DNA of 64,000 nt from Dehalobacterium formicoaceticum (GCF_002224645.1 NZ_CP022121.1:1556501-1620500), one strand, 5' to 3'. Positions 21,611-59,637 are shown, counted from the first letter of the stretch. The notes: a model not told the origin generated them from the letters alone. Made by a program: numbers and translations.

Positions 21611-23104
21611 TTATTTTAACACGGCTTCAATATAGATTTGGGGATTTAAGAGGGTTTCAGCAGCCGCGGCCAGATAAGGGTAAAGCACCTCGCCCCCCAA
21701 ACCTAAGAAAATACTGATTGCAGTTAAAAGCACACAAGGGAAAATCAAACCCTTTGTGCTTATTTTTTCCATATCCTTACTTAATAAGGTTTCACCCCAA
21801 AAACCATTGGTGAAAATTTTTACCACAGAATAAAGGGCCATCAGGCTGGATAATAAGCCCGCAGCGGCCAGAGCATAGAAGAAAGGATCTAAAGCTCCTT
21901 TTTCCAATATTCCCTGGGTAATAATCAGTTTACCGATAAAACCGCTTAAAGGCGGGATACCGCCTAAGGCCATGGCTCCAATGAAAAACATCCAGCCGAG
22001 CAAAGGATGATAGCGGATCAAACCGCTCATTTCTTTTAGCTTGCTGGTGCCTGTAATCCCGATCATAGCTCCGCCGATGAGAAAGAGGAGCGCTTTGACG
22101 ATCATATCATGCATCAGGTAATAAATAGCGCCGATGATTGCTTCCATGGAAAAGGCGGTAAAGCCTGCGATAATAAAACCAACTGAGATGATGACATTAT
22201 AGGATAAAATCTTATGGATATCCCAATAAGCCATTGCCCCCATGCCTCCTAAAAGCATGGTCAAGAGTGCCATCACGCCTAAGATCAAGTGGGTTGTTTC
22301 CGGTTGATGATAGAAAATCAGGGAAAAAACCCGAAAAATCGCGTAAATGCCCACCTTGGTCAAAAGGGCCCCAAAGACAGCCCGAACGGCTGCCGGAGGC
22401 GTACTATAGGATCCTGGCAGCCAGAAAAAGAGCAGCAGACCGGCTTTTAGGCTGAACACAATGATAAAGAGTAAGGATACCGTAGTGATCAGGCCATCCT
22501 GCCCCGCCTGGGCGATCAGCACTGAGAGATGGGCCATATTGACCGTTCCAGTGATGCGATAAAGATAAGCAATGGCAATGAGAAACAGGGAAGATGAAAT
22601 GGTATTAATCAGAATGTATTTAATGGATTCCCTAAGCTGGGGCTTGGTGCCCCCCAGGGAGAGCAGCACATAGGATGCCAGGAGCATGACTTCAAAGCAG
22701 ACAAAAAGATTGAAAAGGTCTCCGGTTAAAAAAGAGCCGTTTACCCCGACCATTAAGAACTGATATAAAGGGTAGAAATAATATCTCTCCCGCTCCTGAC
22801 CAATGGAAGGAATGGCAAACAAAAGACAAGCCAGGGAAACAAAGCTGGCGGTCAAAATAAGCAGTGCGGCAAACATATCTAAAGCAAAGGTGATGCCATA
22901 GGGAGCCGGCCAGCCGCCTAACTGTAAGGTTTGTATCCCCTGGGATGAAACCTGGCTGATCAGAAAAAAGGATGCGGCGCAGGTCAAAAGGACGGCCAAA
23001 ATACTGATTATTCTCTGAAAGAGGATGTTTTTGCGAAAAATTGCGGTCATCAAGCCTGCCCCCAGGGGGATCAGCAGCGGCAGAATAATCAAGTTATTCA
23101 TCAT
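21611..23104 (-). CDS. mrpD: Na+/H+ antiporter subunit MrpD/MnhD
   Basis: A 497-residue polytopic protein of the NuoN/NuoM/MrpD proton-translocating family, with about 14 membrane helices. The conserved glutamate and lysine are in FVCFEVMLLASYVLL and IVFSLKAGLLLFFWLPGSYS. The helix TPPAAVRAVFGALLTKVGIYAIFR is typical of the family. Overlaps mrpC by 11 bases. Full length. Confidence 0.94.
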   Translation of the reverse strand: MMNNLIILPLLIPLGAGLMTAIFRKNILFQRIISILAVLLTCAASFFLISQVSSQGIQTLQLGGWPAPYGITFALDMFAALLILTASFVSLACLLFAIPSIGQERERYYFYPLYQFLMVGVNGSFLTGDLFNLFVCFEVMLLASYVLLSLGGTKPQLRESIKYILINTISSSLFLIAIAYLYRITGTVNMAHLSVLIAQAGQDGLITTVSLLFIIVFSLKAGLLLFFWLPGSYSTPPAAVRAVFGALLTKVGIYAIFRVFSLIFYHQPETTHLILGVMALLTMLLGGMGAMAYWDIHKILSYNVIISVGFIIAGFTAFSMEAIIGAIYYLMHDMIVKALLFLIGGAMIGITGTSKLKEMSGLIRYHPLLGWMFFIGAMALGGIPPLSGFIGKLIITQGILEKGALDPFFYALAAAGLLSSLMALYSVVKIFTNGFWGETLLSKDMEKISTKGLIFPCVLLTAISIFLGLGGEVLYPYLAAAAETLLNPQIYIEAVLK

Positions 23105-26475: not shown

Positions 26476-27153
26476 ATGAAGAAATGTAAAACGCGGATGG
26501 ATGAAAGCATTCTTGTCTGCGTAGCGTATGGTCCCAATGGGGAACGTTTGATTCGTCGGGGATCAAAAATTGCCAATATGCTGGACTGCCCACTTTATAT
26601 TTTAACCATTGATCCACTGCCTTTTGAAGAACTCGACGGTGAACGCACCGCTTATATAGAATTTTGGAGAAAATTAGCGGAAGAAAGTGATGCTGATGGA
26701 TTTATTCTGATGGATAACGAAAAACGTCCTGTAGCTAAGGTGATTGCCCAGGTGGCCCGGGAGAAGCACACGACCCAGATCATTATCGGTCAAACAGCCC
26801 AAAGCCGTTGGCGGGAGATCACTAAAGGATCAATTGTCAATGTTCTGTTGCGGGAAATTCCTTTTATTGATCTGCACATTATTTCTGTGGCCCGGGCTTT
26901 GGTGGACCGGGAAGACCATTACGAGAAAGGAGTGCGGGCTTATTTGATCCCGGAAGGGGACGGGTACCGGGTAAGCTTTCATCATGAAGCCAATGCGGCT
27001 TATGAAGGTATTTTCTTTAAAGAAATCGGTACGGATTTTGATAATGGGATTTTTAAATTCCTGAGCAATCAAGAAATCATGCATGTTCACGTCACCGATG
27101 ATTTTGTCAAAGAATTGAAGAATGTCTCCATGACGGAATGCGAATGGGATTAA
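26476..27153 (+). CDS. Universal-stress/KdpD-like protein
   Basis: 225 residues. The first 140 form a UspA-type nucleotide-binding fold like the Usp domain of sensor kinase KdpD: ILVCVAYGPNGERLIRRGSKIANML at the start and IIIGQTAQSRWREITKGSIVNVLLRE as the ATP-binding signature (G-x2-x-SRW). The C-terminal 80 residues are not recognised. No kinase domain is attached. Its position divergent from mrp suggests a role in cation or osmotic sensing, which is inference. GGAGGGAGG precedes the ATG. Confidence 0.8.
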   Translation: MKKCKTRMDESILVCVAYGPNGERLIRRGSKIANMLDCPLYILTIDPLPFEELDGERTAYIEFWRKLAEESDADGFILMDNEKRPVAKVIAQVAREKHTTQIIIGQTAQSRWREITKGSIVNVLLREIPFIDLHIISVARALVDREDHYEKGVRAYLIPEGDGYRVSFHHEANAAYEGIFFKEIGTDFDNGIFKFLSNQEIMHVHVTDDFVKELKNVSMTECEWD

Positions 27154-27213: not shown

Positions 27214-27229
27214 ATTTGGAGGATTGACA

Positions 27230-28747
27230 ATGAAAAGAGATGACATCGGCGAATTGGAATTGCTAAGACAAGAAATTGAGATCCTGAAAAAGACAAATAT
27301 TCAGCTTCAGGAGGTAGGAGATGATCTGGAGCGAGAGAATCAGTTGTTAAAAACAATCCTTGATAGCATTCACGAGGGCGTTTATGCTACCGATGAAAAG
27401 GGGAAAATTATTTTATATAATCGGGAGGTGGAAAAAACAGAAGGGCTAAAAAGATCCGATGTTTTAGGAAAAAAAGAAACCGATGTCTATTCCTATATTA
27501 GTGAAAACAACTTTTATGAAGCCGTTACTGAGAAGGTTATGAAGACTGTAAAGCCCTTGATTGAGCATCATTATAAGTATTATCTGCCAAACGGGAAACG
27601 AAACGATATATTAATCAATGCTTTTCCTTTCTTTTATCAAGAAAAACTTGCCGGTGTTTATACTGTCGGACGTGATGTTAAAACCATCGGCGAATTTATA
27701 TCCAATACCCTTGTGATGCAAAGAAAACTGACCATGGAAGAAAATAATCCCGCAAATGTGAAGGGAGCTAGATATCTCTTGGATCACATTATTGGTGACA
27801 GCAAGGAAATGAAGGAAACAGTTGCTTTGGCTCGAAAGGTGGCCGGACATAGTTCTCCCATATTAATTGTTGGGGAAACAGGAACGGGCAAAGAACTTTT
27901 TGCTCAAGGAATTCATAACGCCAGTTTATTTGCCAAGGGCCCTTTTGTACCGGTCAATTGTGCTGCTATTCCCGATTCCCTGCTGGAAAGCATATTATTT
28001 GGTACGGTAAAAGGAGCCTTTACCGGAGCGGTTGATATTCCCGGATTATTTGAACAAGCGGAGAACGGTACGATTTTTTTGGATGAAATCAATTCCATGC
28101 CTTTCTCCCTGCAGGCGAAATTGTTAAGAGTGCTGCAGGACAAAGTGGTCAGGAGAATTGGCAGCAAAACGGAAACGCCCATTAACACCAGGATTATTAG
28201 TGCCACCAATGTGGATCCTTTTGTGGCAGTGCAAGAGCAGGTGATTAGGTCGGATTTGTTTTTTCGCTTGGCAACGGTCACAATAGATATCCCTCCGCTC
28301 CGTGAAAGGAAAAATGATATTCATGTTCTCGGCCACTATTTTATCAGAAAATTTAATGACAAATTCGGAATATTTGTCAAAGGAATTTCCCGTGATCTGA
28401 TTAAGCCATTTGAACATTATTATTGGCCGGGAAATGTCAGGGAATTAGAAAATATCATTGAAAGCGGCATGAATTTTGTTGAGCATCAAGACGACGAGTT
28501 GGATTTGGAGCATTTGCCCATGTATTTTCAAGAGCGTTTACTTAAGACGAAGGAGATATCCAAATATATGCCTGGAATTCAAGGTACGTTGCGCAGCAAT
28601 TTACAGGAGTTTGAAAAAAGATTGATTTATGATGCCCTTCTGCGCAATAGCTGGAATATTACGAGAACAGCTCAAGAGTTAGGCATTTTAAGACAAAACT
28701 TACAGCATAAAATTAAGGTGTTGAATTTGCAAAAAGAAAACCGGTAA
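27230..28747 (+). CDS. PAS-domain sigma54-dependent activator
   Basis: A 505-residue enhancer-binding protein. An N-terminal coiled coil (about 5-40) and PAS domain (about 42-150, LDSIHEGVYATDEKGKIILY) sense an unknown signal. The AAA+ domain has Walker A GETGTGKE near 215, the sigma54-contact loop GAFTGA near 262, and Walker B GTIFLDE near 280. The C-terminal Fis-type helix-turn-helix is NITRTAQELGILRQNLQHKIK. ATG 27230 has GGAGG 7 bases upstream. It directly precedes a -24/-12 promoter and two palindromes in front of mttB, so it very probably switches on the mttB-MFS-mttB genes in response to their substrate. Confidence 0.93.
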   Translation: MKRDDIGELELLRQEIEILKKTNIQLQEVGDDLERENQLLKTILDSIHEGVYATDEKGKIILYNREVEKTEGLKRSDVLGKKETDVYSYISENNFYEAVTEKVMKTVKPLIEHHYKYYLPNGKRNDILINAFPFFYQEKLAGVYTVGRDVKTIGEFISNTLVMQRKLTMEENNPANVKGARYLLDHIIGDSKEMKETVALARKVAGHSSPILIVGETGTGKELFAQGIHNASLFAKGPFVPVNCAAIPDSLLESILFGTVKGAFTGAVDIPGLFEQAENGTIFLDEINSMPFSLQAKLLRVLQDKVVRRIGSKTETPINTRIISATNVDPFVAVQEQVIRSDLFFRLATVTIDIPPLRERKNDIHVLGHYFIRKFNDKFGIFVKGISRDLIKPFEHYYWPGNVRELENIIESGMNFVEHQDDELDLEHLPMYFQERLLKTKEISKYMPGIQGTLRSNLQEFEKRLIYDALLRNSWNITRTAQELGILRQNLQHKIKVLNLQKENR

Positions 28748-28758
28748 GACTTAACAGG

Positions 28759-28776
28759 TGCATTTTATATTTGCAT
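28759..28776 (+). promoter_or_regulatory. Upstream activator site 1 (candidate)
   Basis: TGCATTTTATATTTGCAT, a near-palindrome whose reverse complement recurs, with two differences, at 28822-28839. It lies 165 bases before the -24/-12 promoter, typical for a sigma54 enhancer. Assignment to the adjacent activator is inference. Confidence 0.6.
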
Positions 28777-28821
28777 GCATTTAAGATTTGCGGTCTACAC
28801 TTATCGTGAATTTTTGATGTG

Positions 28822-28839
28822 ATGCAAAAATAACATGCA
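28822..28839 (-). promoter_or_regulatory. Upstream activator site 2 (candidate)
   Basis: ATGCAAAAATAACATGCA on the plus strand. Its reverse complement matches site 1 at 16 of 18 positions. It lies about 85 bases upstream of the -24/-12 promoter, with centre-to-centre spacing to site 1 of 63 bases, close to six helical turns. Confidence 0.6.
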
Positions 28840-28874
28840 CTAAGCCTCTTGGTGCTGGAAATTCAATTTTCATA

Positions 28875-28911
28875 AAATCCTTGAAACCCTTTGGTATCAA
28901 GGATTTTTTAT
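28875..28911 (+). terminator. Terminator of the sigma54-activator gene
   Basis: AAATCCTTGA and TCAAGGATTTTTT form a 10-bp stem with a T-run. It separates the regulator transcript from the mttB promoter 13 bases further on. Confidence 0.8.
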
Positions 28912-28923
28912 TTTGTTCATTTT

Positions 28924-28939
28924 TGGCATAGGTCTTGCA
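28924..28939 (+). promoter_or_regulatory. Sigma54 (-24/-12) promoter of the mttB operon
   Basis: TGGCATAGGTCTTGCA: GG and GC are separated by exactly 10 bases, matching TGGCAC-N5-TTGCW. Transcription would begin near 28951, leaving a leader of about 185 bases to mttB1. Confidence 0.85.
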
Positions 28940-29134
28940 ATAATAGTTCGAAGAATTCAATCATCTGATTTATTGAATGATCCCATCAAAACAACAATCA
29001 TATCTTGAGAAAAGGATAACAAAAGGAGGCTGGGAAAAAATAATAATCATTTTCGAACTATAGGATATTAATGGATGATTGATCTAAAGTTGAGACGGGT
29101 TTTAGAAAACAGATTATTACAGGAGGTGTCTTCG

Positions 29135-30610
29135 TTGATTCGTAATAATGCGGCGGGATATAACACTTTTGTTGGCTGCGGTCTTCAATTATTCTCTGAT
29201 CATGATTTGGAAGCGGTGCATTCCAATACCATAGAGATCATGGAAAAAAACGGAATTAATGTTCAGAGCGAAAAGGCTATGGATATTTTTGAAAAAGGCG
29301 GAGCTAAAGTAGACAGAGAGAAGAAAAATGTAAAAATTCCCGGTCACATGGTGGAAGAGGCGGTCCGAACCGCCCCGGGAAAAGTATTGATGGCCGGGAG
29401 AGATCCGAAAAACGATGTTATTTTGGAAGATGGTCGGGTGAATTTTATTCCCTTTGGAACCGGCGTTAATGTGATCGATCCTTATACCGGAGATTACAGA
29501 AAATCCACAAAAAAAGATATTGAACAGCTGGCTACTATTACCGATGCCTTGGATCAAATGGATTTCTGCTTTGACACGGTTATCCCCAGGGATGTTGATC
29601 CCCGGACTGTCTGTTACCATTCATTTGAAGGGCATATCAATAATTCATCAAAACACCTGTTTACCAGCCCGGAAGATACTTATTCGGCACAAATGCTGAT
29701 TGAGATGGCGGGAAAAGTTGTCGGCGGCAGAGAAAAATTAAAGGAACGTCCCATTATTACCGGGGGCGGCTGTCCCATCAGTCCTTTAACCTACTCCGAT
29801 GCTTTATGTGAAAGTATGATTGAATACGCTGAGGCAGAACTTCCTTTTCTTTGTCTTTCCATGGCTATGGCAGGGGGGACTGCGCCGGTAACTCTGGCCG
29901 GGACATTAGTGACACATAATGCGGAAGTATTGACAGGTGTCGTCCTAAGCCAATTGGTCAAGAAAGGCACTCCCATCATTTACGGCAGCTCTACGACCAA
30001 CCTTGATTTGAGAAAAGCTGTTGCTACTGTGGGAAGTCCGGAGCTTGCCCTCATTAGTGCAGGGGTAGCAAAGTTAGCTCGATTTTATAATCTGCCCAGT
30101 TTTGTTGCCGGTGGGTAGGCAGACAGCAAAGAATCCGACGTGCAAGCTGGTCATGAAAAAACCTTGACCTATCTGTTGCCAATGTTAGCAGGCGCTAATA
30201 TTATTTACGGATCAGGTATGCTGGATATGGGTATGACCTTTAGCTATGAACAATATGTCGTGGACAATGAATTTGTCCGGATGATGCGGGGCCTACTTCC
30301 GGGAATTCCTGTCCATGAGCAGAGTATGGCCGTTGATGTGATCCAAAAGGTAGGTGCCGGAGGACACTTCTTAATGGAAGAGCATACCATGGAAAACATG
30401 AAAACTGCTCAGGTATATCCCAAATTTATGAACCGTGATTCCAGAGACGTATGGGCGGCGAGTGAAACTGCCAGCTTGATCTCAAGAGGACGTCAAGATG
30501 CGATTAATATCTTGGAAACGCATCAAACAAAACCCCTTCCGGAAAAGGCGGCGTCAGAAATAAGGTCAACCATTGAAGAAATTGAAAAGGAACTGGGAAT
30601 TAGAAAGTAA
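29135..30610 (+). CDS. mttB: Trimethylamine methyltransferase family protein with in-frame UAG (pyrrolysine), copy 1
   Basis: A 491-residue MttB-family corrinoid-dependent methyltransferase when TAG 30116-30118 is read as pyrrolysine 328. The sequence flows across the codon (SFVAGG-O-ADSKESDVQAGHEK), matching the conserved MttB active-site loop. Downstream residues (LLPMLAGANIIYGSGMLDMG) are as expected of the barrel. TTG 29135 follows ACAGGAGGTG at 6 bases, and its N-terminus aligns with that of copy 2; ATG 29075 has no ribosome site. Substrate is probably a methylamine or quaternary amine; specificity cannot be read from sequence. No corrinoid protein gene is adjacent. Confidence 0.9.
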
Positions 30611-30645
30611 GTCGGGGTTCTCAGATTATTATGGCCAGGCAGGTA

Positions 30646-30681
30646 GAGTCCAGGCGGACTCTGCCTGAACCAGCATCTTAA
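30646..30681 (+). repeat. Hairpin between mttB1 and the MFS gene
   Basis: CAGGCAGGTAGAGTCC and GGACTCTGCCTG pair with a 2-base bulge. No T-run follows, so it may be an RNA-processing or stability element rather than a terminator. Confidence 0.45.
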
Positions 30682-30744
30682 CCGGACGAAATGGAGGGTT
30701 ACAGAAAACAGATAAGCATTAAGGAAAAAACGAGGAGGATATGG

Positions 30745-31977
30745 ATGAAAGGGAAAATATCGATTTTAATAGCTATTGTATTAATTTGTGTTGCTCCGAT
30801 GGCAGATACTTATATCTTAATTCCCGATATGTCAGGCATTGTCAATGCCTTGCCTCCAACTAATTCTACGTTAATCAGCTTCATCCTGACCATATCATCG
30901 TTATTTGTCATTCCCTCCAGCTTAATTGCAGGTAAATTGGTTGAACAGAACAAATTAAGCAAAAAAGGTGCGCTGTTGATTGGATTCACTCTTTTTACCA
31001 TTGGGGGAGCAGCTGGGGGTTTATTCGCCAATATCAACTATATTTTGTTTACCCGAGCTATTGTCGGGATCGGTAACGGATTTGCTACCGCGATGGTAGC
31101 ATCTATTGTAGCCGATTATTTCTCTGGTCAGGCCAGAGCAAACGTGATGGGCTTGTATAATGCGCTGGGAAGTTTGCTTGCCATTGGGCTGACGGTTCTG
31201 GCGGGATATTTAGCTGTGATTAGCTGGCGCCTGCCTTTTGCTGTGTATCTTTTATGTGCTCTGATTGTAGTCTATCATGCCATCGTATTGAAAAAGAACC
31301 CGCCTAAATCTGAAGAGCTGCTTGCAGAAGAAGAGGAGCAGGCAATGCAGGAAGCAAACGCAACTGCATTAGGACAAAAACCTCGTTTAGGAAAAGCAGT
31401 GTGGGTTTTGGTAGTGATTACGATCCTTTCCCAAGTAGTTGGAAATACCCTATATCTTTTCTTATCCATATTTATTGAAGGGGAAGGCATTGGCAACGCT
31501 GCTGCCACGGGAATGGTCAATGGTTTACTTACGGCCTCTATTGTTGTGGTAAGCCTTGTATTCGGATTCCTTTACAGCAAATTTAATAAATATACTTCCA
31601 CGCTGTTTTTCCTTGCTTTCGGTGTTGGTTATCTGATGTTGGCTCGATCACATAGCTTATCAATGGTCATTCTATCAACGGTTGTTTGGGGGATTGGCTT
31701 TGGGCTATCGGTGCCTTATCTCTATCAGGAAGCAACTATGGCTCCGCCAAAAGTCTTGATTACCTTCACCGGTGCCCTTATTAACAGCACGATCTTCTTT
31801 TCCTATGTACTTTCTACCTTTGTCCAACCCTTAATAGCCGGTATCTTTAACAACGATTCCTTGCGCTTTATGTTTGATGTATTGGGCATCGTGATGATTA
31901 TATGTGCTATCGGGGTGGGAATCTATTTTAAAATAAGCGGCAGCGAACCGGTGCCAAACAAAGGAGCAGTTATCTAA
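30745..31977 (+). CDS. MFS transporter
   Basis: A 410-residue major-facilitator permease with about 12 helices. Between helices 2 and 3 the motif is LVEQNKLSKKGALLIG, a diverged GXXXDRXGRR loop. A charged cytoplasmic loop (PPKSEELLAEEEEQAMQEANA) lies between the two halves. ATG 30745 has GAGGAGG at 5 bases; the ATG at 30691 lacks a site. Placed between two mttB genes under one sigma54 promoter, it probably imports the methylated amine or exports the demethylated product. The direction is not shown by the sequence. Confidence 0.87.
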   Translation: MKGKISILIAIVLICVAPMADTYILIPDMSGIVNALPPTNSTLISFILTISSLFVIPSSLIAGKLVEQNKLSKKGALLIGFTLFTIGGAAGGLFANINYILFTRAIVGIGNGFATAMVASIVADYFSGQARANVMGLYNALGSLLAIGLTVLAGYLAVISWRLPFAVYLLCALIVVYHAIVLKKNPPKSEELLAEEEEQAMQEANATALGQKPRLGKAVWVLVVITILSQVVGNTLYLFLSIFIEGEGIGNAAATGMVNGLLTASIVVVSLVFGFLYSKFNKYTSTLFFLAFGVGYLMLARSHSLSMVILSTVVWGIGFGLSVPYLYQEATMAPPKVLITFTGALINSTIFFSYVLSTFVQPLIAGIFNNDSLRFMFDVLGIVMIICAIGVGIYFKISGSEPVPNKGAVI

Positions 31978-32136
31978 CCGCAGACAGATATGAGAAAAAG
32001 ATTTTAGTCGAGCGATAGAATTAGGATATAAGATGTTAAAAGCATTTTCAATGAACAATAAATGAGGGAAGGAGATAATAAAGGGAGGGTTACAAAAAGT
32101 ATTGCTAATTGAAATTAGAGAAGGGGAGGATTGATT

Positions 32137-33618
32137 ATGAAACGAAATAAGAATGCCGGATATGCTTCTTTTAGCGGAGCAAGCTTGCAATTATTCTCAG
32201 AAAACGATCTGCACTTTTTGCATTTAGGCACATTAGAAGTGTTGGAGAGAACCGGATTACATGTTACCGATGAAGAAGCCCTGGAATATTTTGAAAAAGG
32301 GGGCGCCCTCGTTGACCGTAAAAGCAATGTTGTGAAAATTCCTGCTTACATGGTGGAAGATGCTATTAAAAGTGCTCCTGCCAGTGTATTTTTGGCAGGT
32401 AAGGATCCTCAATATGATATCATCCTGGAAGAGGGCCGGGTTTATGTCTGTCCCTTTGGATTGGGCATTTTGATTGTCGATCCTTATACAGGCGAACTGC
32501 GAAATACTACCAAACAAGATATTGCTGATTGTGCCAGAATAGTGGATTACATTGATGAATACGATTTCGTCTTTGATACCATGGTAGCCAGAGATGTTGA
32601 TCCTGCCGTAGCATGTATTCATGGCTTTGAGGCGCCATTGGTCAATACCAAAAAGCCGGTTTTAGCCAGTCCGGAAGACAAAAGAACCGCTGAAATCTTA
32701 CTGGAAATGGGTGCTGTTGCTGCCGGCGGAATGGATCAATTGAAGGATCGTCCCATCATGATGCTGGGTGGGTGCACAATCAGTCCGTTAACGATTCCTG
32801 ACAGCACGGTAGCCGCCGTGATTGAAGGGGCAAAAGCCCGTGTCCCGGTGATGATTCTTTCCATGGCCATGTCTAGCGGCATGGGTCCTGTAACCTTAGC
32901 CGGAACATTAGTTGTCATGAACGCAGAAATATTGGGAGCCCTAACCCTTTCCCAGTTGGTTAATAAGGGAACTTCTTTTATATATGGATCTTCTACCGGT
33001 ACCCTGGATATGAGGCATAATGCTGCTGCCATGGTAGGATGCCCGGAATTAGGGTTAATCAGTGCCGGGGTAGCCAGTATTGCCAGAATGTATAATATCC
33101 CAACTTTAGTTGCCGGTGGGTAGACTGACAGCAAGGTTCCCGATATGCAGGCCGGACACGAAAAGACTCTCACCGCCCTCCTTCCCATGTTAGCAGGTGC
33201 TAATATGATCTATGGACCGGGCATGTTGGAGAGTGGGATTACTATGAGTCTCGGCCAAGTGGTTGCCGATGCTGATTTTGTGCGGATGATTAAGATGGTT
33301 TTGGAGGGTGTTCCGGTTAATGAAGAGACCCTCGCATTGGATGTCATCCATAATGTAGGCATTAAAGGACAATATCTGGGAGAAGAACACACATTCCAGC
33401 TCTTTAAAGAACTGCAGTCCGCACCCAAAATTATGGACCGCCATAACCGTGAGGAATGGAGCACAATGGGTGCCAAGGATATGGCGCTAAAGGCGGATGA
33501 AGAAGCACGCCGCATTATGGAAACCCATAATCCTCAAGTATTGTCGGATGCACAAAAAGAGATGATCCATCAAATTGTCCAAGATGCAGAGAAAGAACTG
33601 ATTGTAAAGAAAAAATAA
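32137..33618 (+). CDS. mttB: Trimethylamine methyltransferase family protein with in-frame UAG (pyrrolysine), copy 2
   Basis: 493 residues with TAG 33121-33123 read as pyrrolysine 329. The codon is in the same place and context as in copy 1 (TLVAGG-O-TDSKVPDMQAGHEK). The protein aligns with copy 1 along its whole length (for example GLGILIVDPYTGELRNTTKQDI beside GTGVNVIDPYTGDYRKSTKKDI) but is clearly diverged, so the two probably act on different substrates or partner proteins. ATG 32137 follows AAGGGGAGGA at 7 bases. No insertion or other stop disturbs the frame. Confidence 0.9.
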
Positions 33619-33632
33619 ACCAGGATTCAAAT

Positions 33633-33687
33633 AGGCTGTGTTATCCGGCATAATGGGCAGGGTTCCATTCTTCGGGCAACACAGCTT
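33633..33687 (+). terminator. Hairpin after mttB2
   Basis: AGGCTGTGTT and AACACAGCTT pair (one mismatch) around a 35-base loop. No strong T-run follows (ACTACTTAAATTTT). Probably a weak or partial terminator before the EamA gene. Confidence 0.4.
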
Positions 33688-33744
33688 ACTACTTAAATTT
33701 TCCCATTTGACAAAAGTGAAATAATAAAGTAGGGGGAATTATCC

Positions 33745-34708
33745 ATGACGAATACCATGAGAGGGTTTGTGTTTGCAACATTGGCAGGTGTGTGTTGGGG
33801 TACCTTTGGCACCTTCGTCGGAATTTTTAAGTAGTTTTGGTTTCAGTGAAACAGCTATTGGCATCTTAGGTCCCGGGTTAATGGTCATCTTTTTTTTAAC
33901 CAGAATTTTAATTCGTAAACCCCAGGTATTAAAGGTCGATGTCAGAAGGTTAGTTTTGTATATTTCAGTGGGTGTTGTTGGTGTTGTTGGTGTTTTAGGT
34001 TCAACCTGGTGCTATGCGGTGGCACTAAGTAAAGGAGTGCCTTTGGGAGTCACTTCAATTTTAACTTTCCTAAATTATTTTATTGTTGTGCTCTTCTCGC
34101 GTATTATCTGGAAAAATAAAATTACCCCTATCAAAATTGTCTCAGGGATTGCTACAATTATTGGTATTGCTTTTATTCTGAATGTGTTTGGTACACTTGC
34201 CGCCCCGGCCGAAGGGCTTTTTTGGATGGCAATCGTGGTCCTTTCCTTTGCCGGTGGGTTTCTTCTTTGCAAATATGCCGTGGATTTGGGATATGATTAT
34301 GATGCATATTTAATGTATACTAATTTGTTTGCCGTGATAATTTTATCCTTTATCAATCCCCCCTGGGCTGTGGTCAGCGAAATTCAAATCAACGTGGGGG
34401 TGCATGGAATCCCGGCAGTTATGGCAATTTTGGGGTTTGGACTGATTCCTATGGTGTCAAGCTACTATTTCCTGATGACTGCTTATAGTTATTTGGAAGC
34501 TCCATTGGTGATCATTATGTACAGTCTTGACCCGGTGGTTGCCTCTATTTTAGGATTTTTGATATTTGGGCAAAGTCTGGTTCCTTTTCAAATCTTCGGG
34601 ATCTTCCTTGTTTTAGCTGCCCTCGTTTGGCTGCAGCTAACAGAACGGGCTTTGGAAAGAAAACAGTTCAGGGAACATCAAGATCCCGTCAAGATGATTG
34701 TCACTTAA
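33745..34708 (+). pseudogene. EamA/DMT-family transporter, frame-disrupted
   Basis: ATG 33745 opens MTNTMRGFVFATLAGVCWGT..., the usual first helix of an EamA (drug/metabolite) permease, but hits TAG after ...TFVGIFK (stop 33832-33834). The rest of the protein, about 300 residues with nine further helices (from LSSFGFSETAIGILGPG), is intact in another frame. One extra T in the T5 run at 33824-33828 restores GIFLSSFGF. It is either a young pseudogene or an assembly error. Its place after mttB2 suggests export of a small amine or amino-acid product, which is inference. Confidence 0.8.
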
Positions 34709-34749: not shown

Positions 34750-34796
34750 AAAAACAGCTCAACAACCAGCAATTTTCTGATTGTTGAGCTGTTTTG
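34750..34796. terminator. Bidirectional terminator
   Basis: AAAACAGCTCAACAA and TTGTTGAGCTGTTTT form a 15-bp perfect stem with T- and A-rich flanks. It ends the mttB/EamA transcript and the convergent sigma-factor fragment. Confidence 0.88.
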
Positions 34797-35305: not shown

Positions 35306-35342
35306 ATTGTTGTATTGTAAAACATTTTTAATTTAATATTTT

Positions 35343-35476
35343 ATTTAAATCATGGAATCAGGTGCAAATCCTGAACAATCTGGTTACTGTAATGCGGAGC
35401 AACTCCATTATGCCACTGCTGAATGCGGGAAGGCGGAGAAAGCGATGAAGCAAAGTCAGGATACATGTTTAAATAA
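35343..35476 (+). promoter_or_regulatory. Cobalamin (B12) riboswitch aptamer
   Basis: Contains the conserved elements in order: GGAATCAGGTGCAAATCCTG (35353-35372), GGTTACTGTAATGCGGAGCAA (split here as GGTTACTG and GCGGAGCAA), the B12 box core GCCACTG (35412-35418), and GGGAAGGCGG...GTCAGGATAC. ATTTAAAT and ATGTTTAAAT close the outer stem. It is followed by a terminator hairpin, implying transcriptional shut-off by corrinoid. Confidence 0.93.
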
Positions 35477-35556
35477 TGATGTATTATTATTTTCCAATGA
35501 AAAATAATGTACAGGATAAAGCCATATATCGGCTAAAGATTGATTGAGACATAGCA

Positions 35557-35683: not shown

Positions 35684-35779
35684 ATGAGAAGGAAGAAAAA
35701 TAGAAAAATTACTAAGATTAGTAAAGAAATAGCTCAAAACAATGATAGAGCTATTCTTAGAAAGGTGGGGCTAAAATGA
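35684..35779 (+). CDS. Possible small leader ORF (31 aa) before the binding-protein gene
   Basis: ATG 35684 to TGA 35777-35779 encodes MRRKKNRKITKISKEIAQNN and 11 more residues, a basic peptide. Its stop overlaps the ATG of the binding-protein gene (ATGA), and AAAGGA lies about 13 bases upstream, so it could couple translation. AATAGCTC...GAGCTATT inside it can form a hairpin just before the next ribosome site. No homology is recognised, and it may be chance. Confidence 0.3.
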   Translation: MRRKKNRKITKISKEIAQNNDRAILRKVGLK

Positions 35780-36924
35780 AGAGGAAAATCGGATTAATTT
35801 TAATGTCGGTGCTTTTGATATTTTCACTATCTGCATGTGGAACAGATACTAAAGAAACAGGAAAGGCAGGAGGGCAAGAAACAGAGGGAGGGGAAAGCTC
35901 TGAAATTACGGTTACAGATATGTTGGGGAGGGAAATTAGTATTAAAAAACCCATTGAAAGAGTAGTAGTAAATTATTGGGAAGCACTAGAATTCTGTATC
36001 GCTGTTGTGGGAGAAGATTTTATTGATATGCCGGTAGGAGTTGGATTTTCCGGTACCGGGGAACAATTTCAAAGAATATACGAAGAAAAATATCCACAAC
36101 TCCAAGATCTGCCTTTAGTAGGCGGAGGTGGTCAAAATGAATATGATATTGAAAAGATAATTTCATTAAAACCAGATCTTTTTATTGCCAATGTATTTGG
36201 TCATTTATCGGAAATAGCCTTAGATGCTGCAGAAAAACTAGAGAGAGCAGGGATTCCTACTTTAATTTTAACCAGATCAGAAGATCCATCTACTTCGCCC
36301 CAAGAAGCCGTATTGCTCGTTGGTAAAATCTTCGGAACAGAAGATCGGGCACGAGAAATGGCAGGTTTTTTAGATGAACAATTTGCAATCATAAAAAGTA
36401 AAAACCTATCTCAGAAAACAGATAAACCAACAGTTTATGAGGAAATGGGTTGGGGTACCAGAGAAGAATATAGTTCAACCGGAATAACTGATGGCTGGGC
36501 TGCTTTGATAGAGCTGGCCGGCGGAGAAAATATTGCAGTTGGCAATGTGGGTGATAATAGTAAAATAGATCCTGAATATTTGCTAACAACAAATCCCGAC
36601 TATATCTTTGTGACATATTTATTAGGATATTACACTCCTGAAGAAGCTCAAGAAAATATGGATGCCACTGTAGGAGAATATGTTCAAAGAAAAGGTTGGG
36701 ACAAGCTAAATGCCGTTCAAAATAACAATGTCTTCTCATTTTTTCACAATCAAGCACAAAATCAATGTGGATTCTATCCTGCATTAAAAATGGCAAAGCT
36801 TTTCTATCCCGGTGAATTTGAAGATATCAACCCTGATGAGCGATTAAAAGAATTCTTTGACCGCTTTATGCTTACAGAGTATGAAGATGGAATTTGGTTT
36901 TATCAATTAGGAGAACAACTTTAG
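35776..36924 (+). CDS. ABC importer substrate-binding lipoprotein (corrinoid/siderophore type)
   Basis: 382 residues. The N-terminal lipoprotein signal is MKRKIGLILMSVLLIFSLSAC, with Cys21 as lipid anchor. The FecB/BtuF-type fold starts at ITVTDMLGREISIKKPIERVVV, the usual opening of this class, and ends in a C-terminal lobe with KGWDKLNAVQNNNVFSF. With the cobalamin riboswitch upstream and a FecCD permease and ATPase downstream, it most likely binds cobalamin or another corrinoid. A shortened copy lies at 39609-40019. Confidence 0.88.
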   Translation: MKRKIGLILMSVLLIFSLSACGTDTKETGKAGGQETEGGESSEITVTDMLGREISIKKPIERVVVNYWEALEFCIAVVGEDFIDMPVGVGFSGTGEQFQRIYEEKYPQLQDLPLVGGGGQNEYDIEKIISLKPDLFIANVFGHLSEIALDAAEKLERAGIPTLILTRSEDPSTSPQEAVLLVGKIFGTEDRAREMAGFLDEQFAIIKSKNLSQKTDKPTVYEEMGWGTREEYSSTGITDGWAALIELAGGENIAVGNVGDNSKIDPEYLLTTNPDYIFVTYLLGYYTPEEAQENMDATVGEYVQRKGWDKLNAVQNNNVFSFFHNQAQNQCGFYPALKMAKLFYPGEFEDINPDERLKEFFDRFMLTEYEDGIWFYQLGEQL

Positions 36925-39608: not shown

Positions 39609-40019
39609 ATGAAGAAAAAAATTGGATTAATTCTCATGTCGCTGTTATTGATATTTTCACTATCTGCATGTGGTACTACAGATTCTGTAGAAACAGGAAA
39701 CGCAGGAGAGCAAGAAATGGGATATTACTCTCCTGAAGAGGCTCAAGAAAAGATGGATTCCACTGTAGGGGAATATGTTCAAAGAAAAGGTTGGGACAAG
39801 CTGAAAGCTGTTCAAAATAATAATGTATTCGCATTTTTTCACAATCAAGCACAAAATCAATTTGGATTCTATCCTACATTAAAAATGGCTAAGATTTTTT
39901 ATCCAAATGAATTTGAAGATATCAACCCTGATGAGAGATTAAAAGAATTCTATGATCGCTTTCTGCCGATAGGGTATGACGATGGAGTTTGGTTTTATCA
40001 ATTAGGGGAACAATTTTAA
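39609..40019 (+). CDS. Internally deleted copy of the corrinoid-binding lipoprotein
   Basis: 136 residues. The first 37 (lipoprotein signal MKKKIGLILMSLLLIFSLSAC and spacer) and the last 100 (GYYSPEEAQEKMDSTVGEYV to YQLGEQF) closely match the binding protein at 35776-36924, while about 246 central residues are missing in frame. The upstream sequence GGGCTAAAATGAAG is also shared. The result is a lipid-anchored C-terminal lobe fragment. Frame and identity are well kept, so it may be either a young degenerate duplicate or an expressed small lipoprotein. Confidence 0.75.
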   Translation: MKKKIGLILMSLLLIFSLSACGTTDSVETGNAGEQEMGYYSPEEAQEKMDSTVGEYVQRKGWDKLKAVQNNNVFAFFHNQAQNQFGFYPTLKMAKIFYPNEFEDINPDERLKEFYDRFLPIGYDDGVWFYQLGEQF

Positions 40020-40237: not shown

Positions 40238-40549
40238 ATGAATAACATCTTAGATGAAGGCTTAATTTCCAATATAAAAAAACTTGGGAAAAAATATCAA
40301 ATAGATAAAATTGTATTGTTCGGCTCCCGTGCAAGAGGGGATAATAGATTTAATAGTGATATCGACCTTGCAATTTTCACATTGCCGGGGTTTTCTGACA
40401 AAGGATATTTGACTAGTGACATAGATGATCTTAATACGCTTCTTAAAATAGATGTTGTATTTATTAATAAAGATACAGATATAAAACTACTGAAAAATAT
40501 TGAAAAAGAAGGAGTACTATTATATGAGCAAGCATCGAACCAAATTTGA
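40238..40549 (+). CDS. mntA: Minimal nucleotidyltransferase (MNT type)
   Basis: A 103-residue polymerase-beta-like nucleotidyltransferase. The signature GSRARGDNRFNSDIDLAIF carries the two metal-binding aspartates (DID), and the third acidic residue is in KIDVVFI. AGGGAGG precedes the ATG. It overlaps the next gene by 26 bases. Proteins of this type pair with HEPN-like partners as toxin-antitoxin modules, the MNT AMPylating the partner, and that role is likely here. Confidence 0.85.
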   Translation: MNNILDEGLISNIKKLGKKYQIDKIVLFGSRARGDNRFNSDIDLAIFTLPGFSDKGYLTSDIDDLNTLLKIDVVFINKDTDIKLLKNIEKEGVLLYEQASNQI

Positions 40550-40922
40550 TAATTTTACATACGCAATTAAACAACTAAAAAATGGGGTTTCAATGTTTAG
40601 TGCGGAAAATGACCTGTTAAGGGATGGATTGATTCAGAGATTCGAATTTACCTTTGAACTTGCGTGGAAAACCCTTAAAGTATGTTTTGAAGATGAAGGA
40701 CTACTAGGAATTAACTCTCCTAAATCTGTATTACGGGAAGCTTTTTCAACAGGTCTTTTAGATGATGATAAACTATGGCTAGAAATGTTAAATGACAGAA
40801 ATTCTACCTCTCATATATATAGCGAATCATTGGCGATTGAAATCTGTAATAAAATTATTGAGAAATATGCAGATGCTTTTGAAAGTCTAGCATCAAAAAT
40901 TAGAATTAGGTATTTTGAATAG
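40524..40922 (+). CDS. HI0074-type nucleotidyltransferase-substrate-binding (HEPN-like) protein
   Basis: A 132-residue helical protein of the HI0074/KNTase-C family (RFEFTFELAWKTLKVCFEDEG and LWLEMLNDRNSTSHIYSESLA). The RN...H motif common to HEPN RNases appears as RNSTSH. ATG 40524 follows AAGGAG at 9 bases. It forms a two-gene module with the minimal nucleotidyltransferase. Confidence 0.85.
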   Translation: MSKHRTKFDNFTYAIKQLKNGVSMFSAENDLLRDGLIQRFEFTFELAWKTLKVCFEDEGLLGINSPKSVLREAFSTGLLDDDKLWLEMLNDRNSTSHIYSESLAIEICNKIIEKYADAFESLASKIRIRYFE

Positions 40923-43191: not shown

Positions 43192-43489
43192 TAATTATTG
43201 CTAATAGCCTTATAAAAACGATGACGCAGACATGTTGCCTGATTTGGGCGGATTCAGAGAGCCGGAGATGCTGAGAACCGGTTTCGGCCAATCTTGTAAC
43301 CTCACTGAAGAGTTGCCCCCTTGAAAGAATTTTAATTTGAGTAGAAAGGGGCCGGCGAAGACCGTTATCTTCTTTGTTTAACACAACAAGCGGCTGCATA
43401 TAAAATATGCAGCAAGCAGGGTGGTACCGCGGAAATCCCTTTCGTCCCTGACAGACTGATCTTTGCCTGTCGTACGAAAGGGTTTTTTT
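43192..43489 (+). promoter_or_regulatory. T-box riboswitch leader of the branched-chain operon
   Basis: The T-box sequence AGGGTGGTACCGCGG is at 43418-43432 and a terminator (43436-43489) follows. Stem I contains AGAGAGCCGGAGATGCTGAGAACCGG (distal region, written here only as AGAGAGCCGG...GAACCGG). The likely specifier is CTC at 43301-43303, followed by A, reading leucine as in the B. subtilis ilv-leu operon. Uncharged leucyl-tRNA would favour the antiterminator and allow ilvD onward. Confidence 0.9.
43436..43489 (+). terminator. T-box terminator
   Basis: TCCCTTTCGT and ACGAAAGGGTTTTTTT pair, with CTGACAG...CTGTCG nested between. The competing form is the antiterminator made with the T-box sequence just upstream. 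Confidence 0.88.
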
Positions 43490-56545: not shown

Positions 56546-56621
56546 GTAGAGTCAAAAAGATTAAATATTGTTTAACAAGTATCAGCTGCCGAAATTAAAG
56601 CTAAAAAAGGGGGTACCCATA

Positions 56622-57745
56622 ATGAAGAAGGCTAATCGCCTTGTGTTTTTCTTGCTTGCAGCAATGCTGATGATTTGTCTTGCTGCCTGCGGTAGTGAAG
56701 CCAATAACTCTCAAGAGAGCGAAGGCGTACCGGAAACGGACGGGAAGCGCACGATCACAGACAGTTTAGGGCGTGAGGTGGAAATACCGGCGACAGTTGA
56801 AACCATCGTTCCCCTCGGTAACACTCCGCGCATGATTACATATCTGGGACTGGCGGACAAGGTTGTAGGAATTGGATCATGTGAGATTGCAGAAAGTCCT
56901 GTTATGGCCTATGCCTATATAAATATTGACAAATGGAAAGGTCTTCCTAATGTCGGTACAGATGCCATGGGTGAGACATCTTATTACCCGGAAGCTATCA
57001 TCGAGGCTAATCCGGATGTCATTCTGTGTACCTATACTCTGGATGTGGTTGAAGATCTTGAAAGACAAACCGGCCTGCCCGTGGTAGCGGTTGCACCAAG
57101 CACTTTATTCGATGAAGATTTTAATCAGTCCTTGCGTATTTTGGGTGAAGTATGCCATGTTTCTGACAGAGCAGAAGAAATTATTAGTTTTATCGATCAA
57201 TGTCTTAATGATCTACAAAGGAGAACTGCTGATATTCCGGATGATAAAAAGCCAACTGTTCTTGCTGCCGCAGCAACTTTTGCAGGCAGCCATGGGATTG
57301 AGGGCATTTATGCAAACTACCCTGTTTTTAAAACAATCGCCGCAAAGGATGTTGCTATAGGTGTTACTGATAAAGTTGGCGGTGTTTTGGTTGACAAAGA
57401 GAAAATTATCGATTGGAATCCGGATATGATTTTTTGGATTTCAGCGGTGTTGAACTGGTCAAAAACGATTATGCTGAGAACCCTGATTATTACGCACAAC
57501 TGAAAGCAGTAACGAACGGAAATGTATACCAATGGCCTAACTCAACATGGCACTGGTCAAATGTGGAGATTCCCCTGGTCAGCGCATATTATCTATCTTT
57601 TATGCTCTATCCGGAAGCATTTTCCGATATTGTTTTTGAGGAAAAAGCAAGGGAAATTTTTGAATTTTTCCTCGGGGAGGCAGATTATCTCAGTACACTG
57701 GAGTCGGTAGGAGCAGGCTATGGCAAAGTTGTACTTGGAGAATAA
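56622..57745 (+). pseudogene. Second ABC importer binding lipoprotein, frame-disrupted
   Basis: ATG 56622 begins a lipoprotein signal (MKKANRLVFFLLAAMLMICLAAC) and a FecB-type fold (ITDSLGREVEIPATVETIVPLG). The frame runs to ...IIDWNPDMIFWISAVLNWS and ends at 57503. The rest (LDFSGVELVKNDYAENPDYY to KVVLGE, ending 57745) is open in the overlapping frame. One extra T in the T6 run at 57430-57435 joins both parts into a normal protein of about 374 residues. It is either inactivated or carries a sequence error; the permease and ATPase genes downstream are intact. Substrate is unknown (iron complex, heme, corrinoid or oxyanion). Confidence 0.82.
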
Positions 57746-57746
57746 C

Positions 57747-58826
57747 ATGAAGCATGAAAGCCAGGATCAATTTCAAAAATATAATCAATTTGTGCGCAGA
57801 AAAAAAATCGTGCTGATTCTGCTTACTCTGATAACTTTGGTGGTGGCGTTATTTTCTGTTGGTGTTGGTTCAATTAACATTTCGATTACAGAAATACTGA
57901 AAACCATTTTTGGATACGGCGATGCCCAATCAAAAACAGTGATTATGGGCATCAGGCTGCCTAGAGTAATTGCCGCTGTTCTTGTGGGTGCACTGCTTTC
58001 AACCTCGGGAGCCGTGATGCAGTGTGTATTGCAGAACCCACTGGCATCAGCATCAACATTAGGCGTTTCTCAGGGAGCAGCCTTTGGCGCAGCTCTGGGG
58101 ATCATTGCATTTGGAGGAGGAGTAGTCAATTCTGCGTCCGCGGCATCGGCTGTTACCATAAATAACCCTTATATCGTAACATTGTGCGCCTTTGTCTTTG
58201 GCGCCATTTCCACGATTGTGATCATTGCTATTTCTCAGCTTAAGAAAGACATCGGTCCCAGCGGCTTGATACTGGCCGGTGTCGCCCTTAGCTCTCTTTT
58301 TTCCGGCGGAAGCACACTTTTACAATATTTTTCTGATGAACAGAAAATCGGGGCTGTTGTTTTTTGGACATTCGGTAATCTTGGAGGTGCTAACTGGAAG
58401 GAAATTCTTATTCTCGCGGTGGTGTTTGCCGCCTCAATGGTATACTTCATCTGGAATCGCTGGAATTATAACGCCATGGAAAGCGGCGCGGATACAGCGC
58501 AAAGCCTGGGCATCAATACAAGAAGAACCATGATGATCAGTATGGGAATATCTTCTCTTTCAGCGGCTGTGGCAGTTTCCTTTGTTGGTATTATTGGTTT
58601 TGTCGGGCTGGTCGCGCCTCACATCATGCGTCTGTTTGTGGGCAACGATTACCGTTATTTGGTGCCTTCCTCAGCCGTAGCAGGAGCACTGCTGCTTGTT
58701 GTGGCTGATACTTTCGGCAAATCTGTGATTGCTCCCGTGATATTGCCCATCGGCGCAATCACCTCTTTTCTAGGTGCTCCAATGTTTCTTTTTCTACTTT
58801 TTAGGGGAGGTAAAAAATATGGTTAA
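57747..58826 (+). CDS. FecCD-family ABC permease
   Basis: About 359 residues with about 9-10 helices. Motifs are IRLPRVIAAVLVGALLSTSGAVMQ, LQNPLASASTLGVSQGAAFGAA and GIIGFVGLVAPHIMRL. ATG 57747 has TTGGAG 6 bases upstream; the ATG at 57720 lies further inside the binding-protein gene. Its stop overlaps the ATPase start by 8 bases. It pairs with the binding protein just before it. Confidence 0.9.
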   Translation: MKHESQDQFQKYNQFVRRKKIVLILLTLITLVVALFSVGVGSINISITEILKTIFGYGDAQSKTVIMGIRLPRVIAAVLVGALLSTSGAVMQCVLQNPLASASTLGVSQGAAFGAALGIIAFGGGVVNSASAASAVTINNPYIVTLCAFVFGAISTIVIIAISQLKKDIGPSGLILAGVALSSLFSGGSTLLQYFSDEQKIGAVVFWTFGNLGGANWKEILILAVVFAASMVYFIWNRWNYNAMESGADTAQSLGINTRRTMMISMGISSLSAAVAVSFVGIIGFVGLVAPHIMRLFVGNDYRYLVPSSAVAGALLLVVADTFGKSVIAPVILPIGAITSFLGAPMFLFLLFRGGKKYG

Positions 58827-59637
58827 GGTTGATGGCATCACCTATATGTATAACCGCGCTGTCGGAAACGTGCTGGAAGAAGTCGGTTTTGATGTCGATG
58901 AAGGTCAATGCATCGCAGTCCTGGGGAATAATGGCTGCGGAAAAAGTACGCTTTTGAAATGCATTGACCGTATACTTCCGGTGCAAAACGGTGCTGTGTT
59001 TGTTGAAGATTCCAATGTTTTTACCCTTTCAGGTTCCTCATTGGCCCAAAATATTGCTTATGTACCGCAAAACACCAGATCGGCAAATATGACGGTGTAT
59101 GATGCCGTGCTCCTGGGCCGGAAGCCATATATCAAATGGGATGTGTCCTCTAAAGACAGGGAAATCGTGCGTGATATCATCCATCAATTACATCTTGACA
59201 ATTATATCCTGCGGAATGTATCGGAGCTTTCCGGCGGGGAGGCGCAAAAAGTAGCTCTTGCCAGAGCCTTGGTCCAGGAACCCAGGTTGCTTTTGCTCGA
59301 CGAACCCACAAGTAATCTTGACCCATACAATCAACATGAAATGCTGAGAATTGTACGAAACATTGCCCGGGAGAAAAATATTTGTGTGGCGATCGTGATT
59401 CACGATCTCAATCTCGCCATACGTTTTTGTGACCGTTTCCTGTTCTTAAAGGATGCTCAGGTCTTTTCTTACGGAGGTCTGGAAAGCGTTACACCTGAAA
59501 TTATTGAAGCGGTCTACCGTATTCATGTCCACATCATTGAACACAAGGGTATTCCTGTTATTGTGCCCTTTCCCGACGAGAAAGTGAAAGAGGAGCACAG
59601 AGAACAATTCTTTGACAAGCAAAGGAAAGTTATATAA
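58819..59637 (+). CDS. FecE-type ABC importer ATPase
   Basis: 272 residues. Walker A GNNGCGKSTLLK, signature LSGGEAQKVALARAL, Walker B LLLLDEPTSNLD, switch His in IVIHDLNLAI. ATG 58819 follows GGGAGG and overlaps the permease stop. A terminator follows, closing the operon. Confidence 0.9.
   Translation: MVKVDGITYMYNRAVGNVLEEVGFDVDEGQCIAVLGNNGCGKSTLLKCIDRILPVQNGAVFVEDSNVFTLSGSSLAQNIAYVPQNTRSANMTVYDAVLLGRKPYIKWDVSSKDREIVRDIIHQLHLDNYILRNVSELSGGEAQKVALARALVQEPRLLLLDEPTSNLDPYNQHEMLRIVRNIAREKNICVAIVIHDLNLAIRFCDRFLFLKDAQVFSYGGLESVTPEIIEAVYRIHVHIIEHKGIPVIVPFPDEKVKEEHREQFFDKQRKVI

Follow-up and report, generated by a model that had tools for sequence, protein, structure and literature searches.

Two described systems stand closest to the locus considered here. 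The first is MttB of Methanosarcina barkeri (7xcm/7xcl, with the corrinoid protein MttC), a pyrrolysine (Pyl) enzyme in which the residues Gly110, Met249, Pyl334, Tyr364 and Gly372 have been described (PMC9842639). The second is found in Eubacterium limosum, where the substrate-induced MttB-family enzymes MtpB, MtcB and MtyB use a common corrinoid protein, MtqC, from another cluster; the reason proposed is a combination of substrate-specific methyltransferase (MT1) genes with generally induced shared parts (PMC8604678). Here we describe a locus of Dehalobacterium formicoaceticum DMC with two mttB genes, mttB1 and mttB2, that each carry an in-frame UAG. It lies in a 64,000-nucleotide stretch, called the window below, which is positions 1,556,501-1,620,500 of a genome of 3,766,545 bp in one contig.

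Both window enzymes resemble the M. barkeri protein (41% identity for MttB1 and 40% for MttB2 over 483 positions), with the UAG at Pyl334 and with Gly110, Met249, Tyr364 and Gly372 retained in the alignment. They differ from it in having no adjacent mttC, in falling on our tree into a Pyl-MttB clade other than its own and, for MttB2, in the change of Thr111 to Leu. The methyl sink here is presumably tetrahydrofolate and acetate, as opposed to coenzyme M and methane in M. barkeri. With the MtpB/MtcB/MtyB-MtqC-MtqA-RamQ system of E. limosum the locus would share a separately encoded, common corrinoid protein, whereas the E. limosum enzymes are non-pyrrolysine proteins for quaternary amines and those of the window are of the pyrrolysine type. 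By analogy, the locus fits the E. limosum logic of a specific MT1 with shared parts, carried out with pyrrolysine enzymes. The picture is mostly familiar: the mechanism is that of corrinoid-dependent methyltransferases, and a separately encoded shared corrinoid protein is already known.

We read the locus, with a probability of about 0.72, as a sigma54-inducible MT1 module. It would belong to the known corrinoid-dependent system that transfers methyl groups from methylamines to tetrahydrofolate, with its acceptor corrinoid protein encoded elsewhere. In the mechanism we propose, the PAS-sigma54 activator would sense a signal and open the -24/-12 promoter, and the UAG codons would be decoded as pyrrolysine by a complete pyl system, the machinery for which is present. 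A small tertiary methylamine would be bound on the pyrrolysine of MttB1 or MttB2, and one methyl group would then be moved to the Co(I) of a corrinoid protein whose gene lies outside the locus; the two MttC copies described below are the likeliest candidates. The two permeases would carry the amine or its product.

A locus for two predicted pyrrolysine enzymes

The genes and signals follow one another in the order activator, terminator, promoter, mttB1, major facilitator superfamily (MFS) permease, mttB2 and EamA gene. Every element named in a sequence-only reading of this DNA was found again; the block it had drawn at 28759-34708 does contain the others, with the exception of the activator, which lies outside those coordinates.

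27224-28747, + strand: PAS-sigma54 (AAA+)-Fis HTH activator (Pfam Sigma54_activat E 1e-61, PAS, AAA lid, HTH_8)
28874-28909, + strand: intrinsic terminator that ends the activator gene (hairpin with 11 plus 3 stem pairs; -15.8 kcal/mol, z -4.1; T run behind it)
28924-28939, + strand: -24/-12 sigma54 promoter TGGCATAGGTCTTGCA, exact consensus match
29135-30610, + strand: mttB1 (Pyl), from a TTG preceded by AGGAGGT; the frame at its longest begins at ATG 29075; TIGR02369 675 bits
30116-30118, + strand: in-frame UAG of mttB1, aligned to Pyl334 of M. barkeri MttB; PYLIS_3 77.7 bits
30691-31977, + strand: MFS permease, between mttB1 and mttB2 (MFS_1 E 1e-32)
32137-33618, + strand: mttB2 (Pyl), from an ATG preceded by GGGGAGG; the frame at its longest begins at TTG 32131; TIGR02369 646 bits
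33121-33123, + strand: in-frame UAG of mttB2, aligned to Pyl334 of M. barkeri MttB; PYLIS_3 83.8 bits
33745-34708, + strand: frameshifted gene of an EamA/DMT-family transporter, the shift being at ~33825-33835 (EamA E 6e-21)

With the UAG read through, both proteins score over the curated cut-off of 525 bits for TIGR02369, the family of Pyl-type trimethylamine methyltransferase MttB. The ribosome-binding sites and homology indicate that TTG 29135 and ATG 32137 are probably the true starts. MttB1 and MttB2 are 51% identical to each other. The PYLIS_3 matches were rejected as evidence of a required RNA element; this model overlaps a conserved coding region.

Each gene contains a single in-frame UAG, and one could ask whether this codon is simply a stop that leaves each gene with two fragments. 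Nothing argues for this directly, although UAG is an ordinary stop elsewhere in the genome, for example at the end of an mttB-like open reading frame (ORF; L043:9411-10883). We consider it very improbable. The UAG falls exactly at Pyl334 in both genes, as it does in the UAG-mttB genes that relatives carry, and the genome holds a complete pyl set, with tRNA-Pyl (pylT), pylSn, pylSc, pylB and pylC at 3.66 Mb and pylD at 1.2046 Mb. Further, seven Pyl-MttB proteins have been detected in the relative 'Candidatus Formimonas warabiya' DCMF (PMC9768040). The pylD gene (G000:C1:1204569-1205288), apart from the other pyl genes, is near an mttB(UAG)-mttC locus at 1.215 Mb. Among the 17 mttB-family genes of the D. 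formicoaceticum genome, six have UAG at the Pyl position; this count follows from discarding the TAG of the mttB gene at 1,275 kb, which was rejected as a pyrrolysine codon since that gene forms a 490-aa frame aligning over the whole family with no internal stop.

A probable corrinoid partner encoded elsewhere

Profile searches of the genome placed no corrinoid-protein gene and no RACo gene in the 64-kb window. The closest B12-binding_2 gene, at 1,769,459, is ~179 kb off, and the closest RACo gene, at 1,418,692, is ~167 kb off, so that both the corrinoid gene and the RamA-type activase lie outside the cluster and the locus is not a linked mttB-mttC(-ramA) operon. A search for mttC-type genes, activases and pylTSBCD found all of them in the genome, away from the locus, including 15 genes with B12-binding domains and seven RACo genes. 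With these, rpoN and the complete pyl set, the locus could feasibly draw on a corrinoid protein from another part of the genome.

The sequence-only reading had taken the missing corrinoid and RamA genes as a special feature, which a survey of the class did not bear out. We compared 26 UAG-mttB genes flanked by 4.5 kb or more of sequence on each side, a sample of mutually related genes that includes several fragmented assemblies and one gene from another class of the phylum (G053), annotated by profiles built from the D. formicoaceticum genome. No corrinoid gene was present within 5 kb in 15 of the 26, RamA was missing near 25, and a sigma54 activator was near 18. The lack of an adjacent corrinoid gene or RamA is normal for UAG-mttB genes of this class, and the absence of mttC beside mttB therefore tells little here.

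A partner is suggested by the orthologous cluster of DCMF (minus strand, 1,669,206-1,659,943), which runs activator, mttB1(UAG), mttB2(UAG), EamA, pylB, a pylC remnant (157 aa), mttC and mtgA, and so has its corrinoid gene in the same cluster. The orthologs are 79% (MttB1) and 83% (MttB2) identical, and on the tree each window enzyme groups with its DCMF ortholog at full support. DCMF shares the order activator-mttB1(UAG)-mttB2(UAG)-EamA, with a sigma54-like promoter at the equivalent place. It differs in that no MFS gene stands between the mttB genes, EamA is intact, and pylB, the pylC remnant, mttC and mtgA follow directly.

In D. formicoaceticum, mttC copies are found at 3,660,033-3,660,659, in the pyl cluster, and at 3,706,773-3,707,399, beside mtgA. 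The MttC of the DCMF cluster is 84.1% and 83.6% identical to these two copies, and 49.5% to the next best copy in the D. formicoaceticum genome. Because mttC stands inside the orthologous cluster, we nominate the copies at 3.660 and 3.707 Mb, from gene neighbourhood, as the most likely partner corrinoid protein. The earlier suggestion that the locus borrows its corrinoid protein is supported by this nomination and by the complete pyl genes. The further suggestion that transporters had taken the place of the corrinoid protein did not hold, in that EamA and mttC occur in one gene string in DCMF. Mis-assembly that conceals a corrinoid gene next door was considered and is unlikely, since the genome is a single contig and the gene order is the same in DCMF.

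The twin-mttB cluster of DCMF has an extra full-length pylB and the 157-aa pylC remnant within it (L093 16611-18193), and this genome also has a fuller complement of pyl genes at 6.24 Mb (L104), along with more pylB- and pylC-like genes (L097, L105). Judged from these genes, pyl genes are copied repeatedly in DCMF.

Predicted sigma54-type control

The D. formicoaceticum genome encodes rpoN, the activator has a sigma54-interaction domain with a GAFTGA motif by direct reading of the sequence, and a -24/-12 element precedes mttB1, which together have the makings of a sigma54-dependent operon. By chance, 0.21 exact consensus matches would be expected in 64 kb when both strands are counted. The window holds one more exact TGGCAY-N5-TTGCW match, at 22883-22898 on the minus strand. 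Exact sites were found 5′ of 8 of the 41 mttB genes of D. formicoaceticum and DCMF, compared with 0.021 in dinucleotide shuffles, and 5′ of 8 of 262 other ORFs in the same stretches. The DCMF counterpart, TGGCAAACCTTTTGCT, has one mismatch and lies in the matching intergenic region, 3′ of a terminator-like hairpin. Sigma54-type inducible control, as first proposed from the window, is supported by rpoN and by the sites 5′ of mttB genes, and we regard the locus as a predicted sigma54-dependent operon.

The activator is a weak relative of PrdR (NCBIfam PrdR 408 bits, under the cut-off of 795), and PAS-sigma54 activators adjoin most mttB loci of this genome. It is 59% identical to the DCMF activator directly 5′ of the orthologous pair and 63% identical to another DCMF activator a few genes further, and for this reason the orthology of the activators is possibly not one-to-one.

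Substrate, transporters and state of the locus

Given the family scores, trimethylamine is the default substrate, and a role of both enzymes in stripping methyl groups from small amines is probable. Set against these scores, growth data of DCMF leave room for another tertiary amine. Three points weigh against the MT1 module as we read it: DCMF carries the orthologous pair and yet fails to grow on trimethylamine (PMC8163858); growth of D. formicoaceticum is so far known on dichloromethane and serine only (PMC10327494); and the EamA gene is frameshifted, which may signal a decaying operon or an assembly error.

The frameshift was seen when the intact DCMF EamA was aligned to the window, where it falls into two frames. 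The first starts at ATG 33745 and gives MTNTMRGFVFATLAGVCWGTFGTFV; the remainder, with 71% identity over 294 aa, lies in the next frame. We conclude that the gene is disrupted, or the assembly wrong, near the T run at ~33825-33835. An EamA-type transporter gene had been recognized in the sequence-only reading and is indeed present, but the ORF given there (33767-34708) lacked the true N-terminus and the frameshift was missed. A programmed frameshift was also considered, with the sequence itself as its sole support. As for the other transporter, MFS genes are near several other UAG-mttB genes. The sequence-only reading had proposed built-in import and product export for two related N-methyl compounds; this is at most a possibility, given that DCMF has no MFS gene between its mttB genes and that EamA is frameshifted here.

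A broken EamA gene and a corrinoid partner that has become separated could mean that the locus is a decaying, disused leftover, and the fact that no methylamine growth is known for D. formicoaceticum would agree with this. We consider such decay unlikely, in that mttB1, mttB2, the MFS gene and the activator are intact, the mttB genes are 79-83% identical to those of DCMF with catalytic residues conserved, and the promoter is conserved in DCMF. The EamA lesion itself, a single-base indel beside a T run, may be an error of assembly.

It is also conceivable, if tentative, that MttB1 and MttB2 act not on trimethylamine but on other tertiary amines, such as dimethylglycine- or dimethylethanolamine-like compounds. 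This would account for an activator and a permease of its own at each locus. The mechanism would be that of the MT1 module with a different substrate, and our confidence in the one overlaps with that in the other. DCMF has 13 UAG-mttB genes, the pair included, and makes no use of trimethylamine, while the culture grew on glycine betaine and choline and was supported by dimethylglycine too (PMC8163858). Absent growth on trimethylamine, however, does not prove absent activity, and the breakdown of glycine betaine and dimethylglycine in DCMF has been ascribed to non-Pyl MttB proteins (PMC9768040). The same authors raise a novel role for Pyl-MttB. The separate clade of the pair would suit another amine, and so would the permeases: 18 of 25 UAG-mttB genes have a member of one of six permease families no further than 5 kb away. 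Position 111 at the rim of the pocket is variable as well, being E in 23 of 44, while MttB1 has T there and both MttB2 and its ortholog have L; the core catalytic residues are identical to those of M. barkeri MttB.

The seven detected DCMF proteins are known by IMG numbers (PMC9768040), and interpolation through 16S positions gave no clear match to the orthologous pair; the spacing of the detected genes points to an mttB gene at ~1,519.7 kb rather than to the pair (1,664-1,667 kb). For lack of a clear positional match, detection of the pair is not claimed.

Beyond the EamA gene, two features mark the end of the locus:

34751-34795, two-way, strand unassigned: terminator hairpin between the block and the next operon (-24.8 kcal/mol, z -6.1; from the hairpin scan)
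35317-35486, + strand: cobalamin riboswitch (RF00174, 75 bits), heading the downstream corrinoid-type ABC uptake operon

A corrinoid uptake operon had been placed shortly downstream, and binding protein, permease and ATPase genes do follow the riboswitch. Owing to the strong two-way hairpin and the riboswitch, we treat this operon as a separate unit. A 136-aa ORF at 39609-40019 is an internally deleted duplicate of its binding protein (35776-36924), retaining the signal-peptide start and, at 82% identity, the C-terminal 100 residues, with the middle gone. A second FecCD-like cluster of binding protein, permease and ATPase is at 56568-59637, judged from ORF translations. Directly 5′ of the activator, 26476-27153 encodes a stand-alone USP-domain protein like central KdpD (KdpD_non_kinase 122 bits, far under the cut-off). 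Overlapping genes for a Polbeta-type nucleotidyltransferase and an NTase_sub_bind protein at 40238-40922 form an MNT/HEPN-like pair, possibly a toxin-antitoxin, and a T-box leader at 43212-43452 is 5′ of a branched-chain amino-acid-type biosynthesis cluster.

The locus bears on the physiological role of bacterial pyrrolysine enzymes: Pyl-MttB proteins were detected in DCMF, and yet this organism does not grow on trimethylamine. Two genera share the pair described here, which comes with an activator and a permease of its own and offers a small set, MttB1, MttB2, MttC, MtgA and RamA, that can be tested for substrate. We suggest, tentatively, that within Dehalobacteriia this pair and a large part of the Pyl-MttB radiation may demethylate tertiary amines other than trimethylamine, with substrate-specific activators and permeases. 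If true, bacterial pyrrolysine chemistry would be broader than the methanogen paradigm, in which Pyl enzymes serve tertiary amines and their non-Pyl relatives quaternary ones.

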